From positions 310,001-374,000 of the forward strand of contig NZ_CADIJO010000001.1 in assembly GCF_902859705.1 (NCBI RefSeq): DNA of 64,000 nucleotides, in the 5' to 3' direction. The notes below the pieces were generated by a model. It did no database searches, was not told the origin of the DNA, and saw only the letters and a list, made by a program, of their open reading frames with translations. The position numbers were made by a program, and so were the translations under genes. Origin of the DNA: Achromobacter deleyi (GTDB lineage Bacteria; Pseudomonadota; Gammaproteobacteria; Burkholderiales; Burkholderiaceae_B). Below, piece after piece: positions 47,797 to 50,419 of the stretch (position 1 is the first letter of the stretch; each line of letters begins with the position of its first letter).

Positions 47797-48741
47797 ATGA
47801 ACCTGCAGCAATTTCGTTTTGTGCGCGAAACCATCCGGCGCGACTTCAACCTGACCGAAGCCGCCCGGATGCTCTATACCTCCCAACCGGGCGTGTCCAA
47901 GGCGATCATCGAGTTCGAGGACGAACTCGGCATCAAGATCTTCGAACGCCATGGCAAGCGCATCAAAGGGCTGACCAAGCCCGGCCTGGCGGTTTCGCAG
48001 GTGATCGACCGCATCATGCGCGAAGTCGACAATCTCAAGAAAGTCAGCGACGAATTCGCCCGCCGTGATGAAGGCGGCCTGGTGATCGCTTGCACGCACA
48101 CCCAGGCCCGCTATCTGCTGCCGCGCGTGATCCCGGCGTTTCGCAAGCAGTTCCCCAAGGTGCACCTGTCGCTGGCAGAAGGCAGCCCGGCGCAACTGGC
48201 CGAAATGGTGCTGCACGAGCAGGCCGACCTGGCGCTGGCGACCGAGTCCCTGGCGCTGACCCCGGGCCTGGCGACGCTGCCCGTCTACGCCTGGGAGCAC
48301 ACCGTGGTGGTGCGCCCCGACCATCCCCTGGCCGAGCTGACCTCCAGCGCCGCCAAGCGACTGTCACTGGCGCAACTGGCCGAATTCCCCATCGTGACCT
48401 ACGACCGCGCCTTTACCGGCCGCAGCACGATCGACGAAGTCTTCGCCAACCAGGGCATCCATCCGGACATCGTGCTGGAAGCCATCGACGCCGACGTGAT
48501 CAAGACCTACGTGGACGTGGGCCTGGGCATCGGCATCATTGCCGGCGTGGCCTACGACCCGCGGCGCGATTCGAACCTGGTGGGCCTGCCCGTGGGCCAC
48601 CTGTTTGGTACGCACACCACCCGGGTGGGCGTGAAGGCCGGCGTGTTCCTGCGTGACTACGTCTACACCTTCCTGGAAATGCTGGCGCCGTCATTGACCC
48701 GCGCGGTCGTGACCGAGGCCGTGCAGGGCACGCCCAAGTAG
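47797..48741 (+). CDS. cysB: LysR-family regulator CysB
   Basis: A 314-residue LTTR that activates sulfate assimilation genes in response to O- or N-acetylserine. The N-terminus MNLQQFRFVRETIRRDFNLT with AARMLYTSQPGVSKAIIEFE is the CysB/Cbl signature. Effector-domain features are CTHTQARYLLPRVI and the late GLGIGIIAGVAYDPRRD. CysB is preferred to Cbl on overall match and the single-copy context. Confidence 0.92.
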   Translation: MNLQQFRFVRETIRRDFNLTEAARMLYTSQPGVSKAIIEFEDELGIKIFERHGKRIKGLTKPGLAVSQVIDRIMREVDNLKKVSDEFARRDEGGLVIACTHTQARYLLPRVIPAFRKQFPKVHLSLAEGSPAQLAEMVLHEQADLALATESLALTPGLATLPVYAWEHTVVVRPDHPLAELTSSAAKRLSLAQLAEFPIVTYDRAFTGRSTIDEVFANQGIHPDIVLEAIDADVIKTYVDVGLGIGIIAGVAYDPRRDSNLVGLPVGHLFGTHTTRVGVKAGVFLRDYVYTFLEMLAPSLTRAVVTEAVQGTPK

Positions 48742-48771
48742 GCGTGGCCGGCATGGATGCCCAGCGACAAG

Positions 48772-48803
48772 ACGCGGCCCCTGGCGGGAGCCGCGTTTTT
48801 TTT
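48772..48803 (+). terminator. Terminator after cysB
   Basis: The arms ACGCGG (48772-48777) and CCGCGT (48791-48796), with further pairing inside the loop, are followed by a run of eight T. It starts 31 bases past the cysB stop. Confidence 0.75.
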
Positions 48804-48889
48804 GGGGCAGAGGGAACGGGGACGGGTCTCTCACTATGCGTTCCCATAAGCTCATAAAAATAATTAAATAAGAACCGATCTCATTTAAG

Positions 48890-48917
48890 TTGACTAAAAA
48901 ATAGGAATCATTATCAT
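48890..48917 (+). promoter_or_regulatory. Promoter of the DUF2325 gene
   Basis: TTGACT (48890-48895) and TATCAT (48912-48917) are separated by 16 bases, a good sigma-70 match in an AT-rich stretch. The -10 element lies within the Fur-like box. Confidence 0.6.
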
Positions 48918-48921
48918 TACA
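48903..48921 (+). promoter_or_regulatory. Fur-like iron box
   Basis: AGGAATCATTATCATTACA matches, on the opposite strand, about 13 of 19 positions of the classic Fur consensus, including the whole core AATGATAATGATT apart from one base. It covers the -10 element, so iron-loaded Fur would block transcription. Confidence 0.6.
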
Positions 48922-48951
48922 TCCAGTCTCAACGACCCAGTGAGGTTCAAC

Positions 48952-49272
48952 ATGACGGCAGGATTGAGTGCAGTGGTAGTGGGCGCCGACAGGCTCGGCA
49001 ACATTCCGGATCTGCTTAAAGGACACAATATTTCGATCACGCACCACATCAGTGGCCGTGACCCCTCGCATCAGAAGAAGACGTTGCAGCTGCCCTCGGG
49101 CACCCAGCTGGTCATCTTGCTGACCGACTTCCTGGGCCACAACGTCATGAAGACGTTCCGCAATGCCGCGCAGCGTGGCGGCATCCGTGTCGTGGCTTGT
49201 CGCCGTTCGGTGTGCAGCATGCAGCAGGCGCTGCAGCAATGCGGCCTGTGCTCGGGAGCCGCGGTCCACTGA
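48952..49272 (+). CDS. DUF2325 domain protein, predicted iron-repressed
   Basis: A 106-residue cytosolic protein of the DUF2325 family. It begins with a Rossmann-like VVVGADRLGNIPDLL, continues with HHISGRD and LVILLTDFLGHNVMK, and ends with three cysteines (VACRRSVCSMQQALQQCGLC; four counting the last). The function is unknown; the Cys cluster hints at metal or Fe-S binding. The ATG at 48952 has TGAGG six bases upstream; a GTG twelve bases earlier overlaps that site. The promoter carries a Fur-like box. Confidence 0.75.
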   Translation: MTAGLSAVVVGADRLGNIPDLLKGHNISITHHISGRDPSHQKKTLQLPSGTQLVILLTDFLGHNVMKTFRNAAQRGGIRVVACRRSVCSMQQALQQCGLCSGAAVH

Positions 49273-49352
49273 CGGCTTGCCGCGCTGCCGCGGATACAGA
49301 AAAACTGGGGAGGCCGAAACGGCCTGCGGCCCCAAGGCCGCGAAGAGAAATG

Positions 49353-49389
49353 AAAAACGCCGCCGGACTGGAAAGTCCGGCGGCGTTTT
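49353..49389. terminator. Bidirectional terminator
   Basis: A perfect 16-pair stem (AAAACGCCGCCGGACT and its complement, GGAA loop) with A and T runs on its two sides lies between the convergent DUF2325 and NlpC/P60 genes and can serve both. Confidence 0.85.
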
Positions 49390-49444
49390 GCCGTTTGGGG
49401 GATGGCGCGGGGCAGGGCGTCGTGCGACGCTGCCCCAAAGCGTA

Positions 49445-50107
49445 TCAGTTGGCCGCGCGGGCCGAGGCCATCAGGCTGTTGTCCAGGCGGCGGGCGCCGT
49501 TGTAGCGCTTGGTCCAGTAGGCCATGGTCATGTTTTCGACACGCACCACGCCGCCGGCGCTGGGCGAGTGCACGAAGCGGTCGTCGCCCAGGTAGATGCC
49601 CACGTGGGAATAGCGGCGGCCCATGGTATTGAAGAAGACCAGGTCGCCGGCCTTGAGCTCGTTCTTGCTGACGGAGGTGCCTTGCTGGGCGATTTCGGCG
49701 GCGTTGCGGGGCAGCTTCAGGCCCAGCGAACGTTCGGCGGAATACGCGACCAAGCCGCTGCAATCGAAACCGGTATCGGGGGAGCTGCCGCCGAAGCGGT
49801 AGCGGATGCCCAGGTAGTTCAGGGCTTCGCTGACCATGGCGTTGTCGCTGCTGACTCCCGACGATTGGGTGCGCTGGCGGTCACGCTTGAACTTCTGCAC
49901 CACCAGCATGCCGATGGGGTCATCGGCGGTGGCGACCCATTCCGTTTCGTACGGATCGATCTCGGACGAATAGGCGGTGGATTTTTGATTGGTGCCTGCA
50001 CAACCCGCCAGACCCGCGACGCACGCCACCAGCGCCAGCAAACGCAGACCGCGGTGTGCTTGGCCAGAGGATGAATTCAGTCGCGCGCTTTTGGAGTGTC
50101 GATGCAT
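49445..50107 (-). CDS. NlpC/P60 (C40) peptidoglycan endopeptidase lipoprotein
   Basis: A 220-residue cell-wall hydrolase. The N-terminus has a lipoprotein signal with lipobox LAGC (LLALVACVAGLAGCAG). The NlpC/P60 domain spans about residues 90-215: catalytic Cys in DTGFDCSGLVAYSAE, His in RYSHVGIYLGDDRFVHSPS and the third polar residue in that same strand. It probably cleaves peptide crosslinks in the wall, like Spr/MepS. The ATG at 50107 is chosen; a GTG seven codons earlier is possible, and neither has a clear ribosome site. Confidence 0.85.
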   Translation of the reverse strand: MHRHSKSARLNSSSGQAHRGLRLLALVACVAGLAGCAGTNQKSTAYSSEIDPYETEWVATADDPIGMLVVQKFKRDRQRTQSSGVSSDNAMVSEALNYLGIRYRFGGSSPDTGFDCSGLVAYSAERSLGLKLPRNAAEIAQQGTSVSKNELKAGDLVFFNTMGRRYSHVGIYLGDDRFVHSPSAGGVVRVENMTMAYWTKRYNGARRLDNSLMASARAAN

Positions 50108-50419
50108 TCGGCTGGGGATGGCAGCCACTTTTTTCGCAGATCAGAAGCAATAAAGCGTCAAAAACGCTAAAAAACACCTGAATAGCTGGAATAAAGCAGC
50201 GAACCAACAGATATGTTGTCACAACTTCGCGGGGATTCTACCAAACTTTTAAGACTGGTTCGTTACTGTAACCAGCCTGGCGCCCGTGAGGCGTAGACGC
50301 GTGGCAGAATTTTTTGACCTGGGGCAAGCCTGGTGCAAGGTTTGCCCACCAAAATGACTGAAGGATTCAAAAAGAAAGCAATCAGCCTTAAGGCGTATGC
50401 ACAATAACAGGAGACAAAA
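50108..50419. other. Control region between the C40 lipoprotein and prpE genes
   Basis: These 312 bases hold no gene. The left half is AT-rich and should contain the minus-strand promoter; TTGGTT and TATTCA 17 bases apart are candidates near 50176-50204. The right half holds a sigma-54-like element overlapping an inverted repeat (50322-50347), then the prpE ribosome site. Confidence 0.5.
50331..50346 (+). promoter_or_regulatory. Possible sigma-54 promoter of prpE
   Basis: TGGTGCAAGGTTTGCC has the GG and GC pairs ten bases apart, matching most of the TGGCAC-N5-TTGC consensus. It overlaps an imperfect palindrome with arms GGGCAA and TTGCCC. Propionate genes in enterobacteria use sigma-54 with PrpR, which makes the match plausible. 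Confidence 0.35.

Follow-up and report, generated by a model that had tools for sequence, protein, structure and literature searches.

The DUF2325 gene analysed here lies in a 6.8 Mb genome of Achromobacter deleyi, in the stretch of 64,000 nucleotides that is called the window throughout. It occupies positions 48952-49272 of the forward strand (stop codon included), begins with the ATG at 48952 and encodes 106 amino acids; GAGG at 48942-48945 on the same strand reads as a likely ribosome-binding site. The protein matched PF10087 with an E value of 5.6e-14 and 52.5 bits, against a curated cut-off of 33.6, and the match covered positions 1-94 of the 94 in the profile. Its closest named relatives are found in Bordetella and Achromobacter. 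The gene is flanked by a cysB-type LysR gene upstream and by a convergent NlpC/P60 gene downstream. RNA folding placed an intrinsic terminator of the cysB-type gene at 48769-48803 on the forward strand, where the stem (48769-48799) and the following U tract had a free energy of -21.9 kcal/mol (z -4.22). A terminator hairpin 3' of the DUF2325 gene, common to the convergent NlpC/P60 gene and not assigned to one strand, was found at 49354-49389 and folded with -32 kcal/mol (z -5.31). Of the two flanking hairpins, the terminator scan reported only the downstream one, on the minus strand. Since two stable hairpins bound the gene, we regard it as a single-gene unit. A sequence-only reading of this DNA had proposed a 106-residue DUF2325 protein encoded by a single-gene unit between terminators, and the profile match above the cut-off and the stable folds on both sides bear out both claims.

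The surroundings of the gene are conserved as well. The gene neighbourhood of the window at 47797-50128 recurs across the family, though neither flanking gene is iron-related. Each of the 40 longer family loci compared had an NlpC-type match, and 32 of them also had one of the cysB type. The lack of an iron gene next to DUF2325 in the window was counted against the reading as a Fur-controlled gene for iron handling.

The promoter scan detected a -35 hexamer TTGACT at 48890-48895 and a -10 hexamer TATCAT at 48912-48917, both on the forward strand and separated by 16 bases, which together hold 10 of the 12 consensus bases. The -10 hexamer overlaps a predicted Fur box, TAGGAATCATTATCA, at 48902-48916 on the forward strand, which has the 7-1-7 form and agrees with the consensus at 11 of 14 positions. 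The same early reading had described a promoter with its -10 inside a Fur-like box, and this arrangement is indeed present at the DUF2325 gene. A scan for TGATAATNATTATCA that allowed up to 3 mismatches found TAGGAATCATTATCA and nothing else in the 64-kb window. In shuffled windows a mean of 0.15 matches to TGATAATNATTATCA was obtained, and 14 of 100 shuffles gave at least one, so the chance occurrence of the proximal box, taken alone, is only mildly unlikely. The box is convincing because it is conserved upstream of the orthologues, not because it is rare in the window.

Directly upstream of the -35 hexamer, the pattern scan revealed a second Fur-box-like palindrome, AAATAAGAACCGATCTCATTT, at 48866-48886 on the forward strand, which was absent from the sequence-only reading. 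In form it equals AAATAGGAATCATTATCATTA, which spans 48899-48919, and the spacing between the two is exactly 33 bp. With up to 2 mismatches, AAATRRGAANNNNTCTCATTT matched the window three times at two places, namely the distal element on both strands and the proximal box, and the mean in shuffled windows was 0.01; AAATRRGAANNNNTCTCATTT was derived from the distal element itself, and its scan is therefore no independent test. Some other genera have cleaner distal palindromes at a similar distance, for example AAATGAGAATTCATCTCATTT. The best distal score reached at least 11/14 in 10 of 40 family loci and was 10 or lower in the remainder, which indicates that a second operator is not general.

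Of the 151 family genomes, counting the own genome, 131 have an orthologue of the DUF2325 gene. A Fur-motif scan upstream of the orthologues had been suggested as a check, with absence of the box as a refuting outcome, and the box was found there: a match of at least 10/14 within 300 bp occurred in all 70 family rows, which represent 62 distinct genes, 8 of them appearing twice. For a control within each locus, we asked where the best 7-1-7 match falls in 6-10 kb, and whether it lies in the 200 bp that precede the DUF2325 start. The set comprised 40 loci of 39 genera; these 200 bp held the best or tied-best match in 38 of them and the single best match of the locus in 31. The upstream match reached at least 11/14 in 34 of the 40 loci, and in 24 TTGAC precedes the box by at most 22 bases. 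The start codons in the loci read are nearest-ATG guesses. From the boxes at the orthologues, the DUF2325 gene is very probably under the control of Fur.

The boxes of Fur-family regulators resemble one another, and the own genome encodes three Fur-family proteins (PF01475 matches above the cut-off). A Zur-, Mur- or PerR-like regulator might thus bind the boxes instead of Fur; we consider this very improbable, since genes for sigma factors, an AraC-type regulator and a TonB receptor carry this core in the own genome, and iron importers are among the neighbours of DUF2325 genes in other genomes. A scan of the own genome for the core GAATNATTATCATT, allowing up to 1 mismatch, gave 7 places, and a control with the reversed pattern gave 0. 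Five of the six further sites lie at iron-type genes: three at sigma-70 genes, which are ECF-type in size, one at the gene of an AraC-type regulator and one at that of a TonB-dependent receptor with a plug domain. Pfam assigned sigma-70 regions 2 and 4 to the former and HTH_18 to the AraC-type regulator. Judging from such arrangements, we take the sigma factors to be FecI-like and the AraC-type regulator to be of the siderophore type. At one sigma gene (L190) the site falls inside the open reading frame as called from the first GTG, and the true start is probably further in. The sixth further site lies on a small contig at an open reading frame with no visible link to iron and was counted against the Fur reading. 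This site (L189, 1172-1393) is an exact match to the Fur core and lies over the start of a 73-aa open reading frame; the surrounding frames resemble toxin/immunity genes by eye, and a relation to iron is improbable.

Single-gene units regulated by Fur with the box over the -10 are a common arrangement. The DUF2325 gene is like them in being a single gene with its putative operator over the -10 and with a core that it shares with iron-type genes of the genome, and differs from the known cases in that the encoded protein has no known activity.

Homologues outside the family were then considered. PF10087 was matched in 51 of 150 genomes of the order (49 above the cut-off), by short and long forms, and four of the 51 genomes belong to the window's own family. 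A search with the A1 profile found 5 of 274 genomes in the class and 3 of 398 in the phylum, the own genome being counted both times; its first pass scored at most 17 (class) and 11 (phylum) candidates per genome, and these numbers are possibly undercounts. Short-form loci, 40 in all, were read in 26 genomes of the order, in four further ones of the class and in a few additional genomes. In this order-level set the upstream match was the single best in 22 of 40 loci and the best or tied-best in 26. Among the 34 close homologues outside the family, 30 from the order and 4 from other orders of the class, the box reached at least 12/14 in 25 and remained below 11/14 in 9. Six relatives were left out of the 34-locus counts for their low profile scores (L210, L211, L214, L219, L220 and L237), and none of them had an upstream match of 10/14 or better.

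The neighbours of the 34 loci were surveyed with two open reading frames on each side, giving 135 mechanically chosen frames; the figures are raw counts without control neighbourhoods and come from 25 listed of the 126 families matched. The families listed included extracellular solute-binding proteins (9), binding-protein-dependent permeases (6), FTR1 (5), TonB receptors (4) and ferritin-like proteins (4), which count in favour of a role in iron handling. On the other side, they included NlpC/P60 and cytochrome c (4 each) as well as transhydrogenase subunits and phosphoribosyltransferases (3 each). One neighbouring frame, at L207, had been entered in the wrong frame, and tblastn served to check the solute-binding gene there. 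Head-to-head pairs of DUF2325 and an FbpA-type solute-binding gene were found in at least 8 of 30 genomes, with the matched ranges 380-483 bp apart. One of these FbpA-type proteins matches solved ferric-binding proteins with an E value of 1.7e-120; the identity of the other seven to this protein ranges from 44 to 91%. In 6 of the 8 head-to-head genomes, the 200 bp that precede the DUF2325 start contain a box of at least 12/14. An FTR1 gene lies within 4 kb of DUF2325 in 5 of 30 genomes, at a distance of 0.3-3.5 kb; FTR1 is encoded in 20 of the 30 genomes compared.

An iron-type cluster was observed on a Nitratiruptor plasmid (NZ_AP023062.1; L242, 3073-7173). There, a DUF2325 gene is divergent from a Fur-family gene, and genes for a porin, a ferritin and an imelysin adjoin. 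Like the window gene, it encodes a PF10087 protein (E 3.1e-14) and has a Fur-like box upstream, TGATAATTATTCTCA; its neighbours are of the iron type. The two proteins are about 31% identical over 62% of the query (E 0.1), and the plasmid protein, unlike that of the window, lacks counterparts of C83 and H40 in the alignment. Two Bacillota homologues were also read: that of Anoxybacillus had no iron gene among its annotated neighbours, and the Acetoanaerobium record is unannotated at the locus.

A Fur-regulated DUF2325 protein is already published for Campylobacter. The DUF2325 gene cj1384c of C. jejuni is reported to be iron-repressed (PMC3815106); its expression rises in a fur mutant, and a Fur repression motif is listed for it (PMC4491227). 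With this precedent for the regulation, our finding is only moderately surprising. Cj1384 (104 aa) is, like the window protein, a small stand-alone DUF2325 protein rich in cysteines, and the iron repression and Fur regulation are reported for Cj1384 (PMC4491227, PMC3815106 and PMC9426514). There are also differences: cj1384c lies beside katA, is reported to be under PerR too and has a product with 7 cysteines, whereas the gene in the window is a unit by itself, flanked by cysB- and nlpC-type genes. The literature on Burkholderiales, in which subscription journals were poorly covered, yielded no Fur-regulated DUF2325 gene, and a search of the Bordetella Fur literature without the locus tag found no paper tied to the window gene. 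DUF2325 has also been named as a possible secondary encapsulin cargo (PMC6934571).

The Campylobacter gene also speaks for a different function, in which the protein would chiefly protect against oxidative stress, such as peroxide or photo-oxidation, and the control by iron would reflect the usual coupling of these responses. We regard this as possible though doubtful. PMC9426514 reports that cj1384c lies beside katA and is regulated by PerR and by Fur, that it was up 352-fold under killing violet-blue light and that a mutant was more light-sensitive; this phenotype, however, was seen at the highest dose only, and purification of the Cj1384 protein did not succeed. AhpC-TSA accounted for 2 of the 135 neighbours, among the families listed, but the commonest company found in other Burkholderiales is that of iron-import genes, and the Alcaligenaceae promoter bears Fur-type boxes.

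The cysteines of the protein were then inspected. The motifs VACRRSVC and QQCGLC, noticed in the sequence-only reading, are present, and that reading had suggested, as a possibility, a metal- or Fe-S-handling factor. C83 is the sole invariant residue among the four cysteines (40/40 in the family and 34/34 outside). C88 is kept in 36/40 and 18/34 and C100 in 36/40 and 26/34, respectively; C97 is kept in 30/40 family members, and outside the family cysteine is not among the four commonest residues at this position. The C-terminal CxxC occurs in 36/40 and 27/34 sequences and is missing in 4/40 and 7/34. Since there is no invariant ligand set beyond C83, an Fe-S protein by way of the cysteine cluster was rejected as the leading idea. 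Thus, of the original iron and Fur interpretation, the control by Fur is supported by the boxes of the orthologues, whereas the Fe-S suggestion is weakened.

Invariance was counted at 25 positions. The residues G11, A12, D13, L15, G16, H32, R36, Q41, T58, D59, F60, H63, N64, C83, R85 and S86 were identical in all 40 family and all 34 outside sequences, and H40 was kept in 40/40 and 28/34. In an alignment of short and long PF10087 members with 34 rows, one of which (L087) is gapped across the whole domain, G11 was found in 33, H32 in 31, H63 in 33 and R or K at position 70 in 33 rows; the window protein carries all four. The structure model, which is of moderate confidence (mean pLDDT 74.6, pTM 0.64), shows a four-stranded alpha/beta domain. 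By the strand positions of this model, most invariant residues fall just after strands 1 to 4, and the ends of the strands are the usual ligand side of Rossmann-like folds. We infer that G11, D13, H32, R36, D59, H63, C83 and R85 may form a conserved pocket on a Rossmann-like domain. Their conservation suggests a ligand or metal pocket centred on the two histidines rather than an Fe-S site.

Comparisons of the model and of the sequence with known proteins gave no function. Foldseek against the PDB found nothing at 0.001 or better (the best hit had 1.3e-3), and VIA-align gave a Z of 9.6 to a part of 2gfq and of 8.0-8.5 to several receivers, likenesses that may reflect just a common alpha/beta arrangement. 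A sequence search for solved relatives found none and returned one match, to a designed protein, at E 2.4; at E 0.001 NCBIfam gave no family. An assignment of function from fold or sequence was rejected, with no decisive match from Foldseek, VIA-align, PDB sequences or NCBIfam. The resemblance of the model to receiver and Rossmann domains leaves some room for a role as regulator or adaptor, in which a lone receiver-like domain would sense a signal (metal or nucleotide) or relay it to another protein. Response_reg was matched by 3 of the 135 neighbours, among the families listed, and the DUF2325 domain occurs also behind a long N-terminal part. Nevertheless, the Z values are within the range of common alpha/beta arrangements, and Pfam at E 0.001 recognised DUF2325 alone in the window protein, with no match to Response_reg, and we judge a regulator to be unlikely.

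A mobile origin of the gene was also considered. A DUF2325 open reading frame is named in a filamentous phage in PMC10534721. The window protein had no match at E 0.001 among 50,697 phage records, no relatives in viral contigs were confirmed and the matching plasmid records numbered 2 at 1e-5 and 4 at E 1. With no phage match, no confirmed viral relative and few plasmid records, a mobile origin was rejected.

Fur boxes across dozens of genera, together with the iron-uptake neighbours in distant relatives, argue for a role in iron shortage, and the DUF2325 protein probably helps the cells to cope with it. It is likely, although well short of certain, that the gene is a single-gene member of the Fur regulon whose protein handles iron during starvation; for a direct role of the protein in iron handling, taken by itself, the chances are about even. 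When iron is plentiful, Fe-Fur would bind the box over the -10 and block RNA polymerase, and it would probably also bind the second box, 33 bp away and upstream of the -35. When iron is short, the promoter would open and the small cytosolic protein would be made. The protein could then take up or pass on metal from FbpABC- or FTR1-type importers. Alternatively, it might guard against the oxidative cost of iron import.

A more specific version is that the small DUF2325 proteins are an unrecognised cytosolic acceptor, whose His/Asp/Cys pocket takes the iron delivered by FbpABC or FTR1 and hands it to ferritin or enzymes. We think this quite unlikely; if true, it would account for the arrangement head-to-head with FbpA-type genes as well as for the Fur boxes. 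To our knowledge, few bacterial iron chaperones are known. The Fur-type promoter, which is conserved, and the iron-import genes near DUF2325 in other genomes make it a candidate for intracellular iron handling, and a domain of unknown function gains a clear physiological context.

The own genome holds a second DUF2325 gene (L002, 1444-2187 on contig C14), which encodes 247 amino acids with a long N-terminal part. The long PF10087 proteins, including this one, share the domain with the window protein and mostly keep G11, H32 and H63. They differ in carrying HHDGG and C-x3-C-x2-H, whereas the short forms have GRxxxHQ and TDFLxHN instead. Among 17 long-form loci (L073-L089), for which the starts were guessed, four (L074, L075, L076 and L081) had an upstream match of 12 or 13/14.
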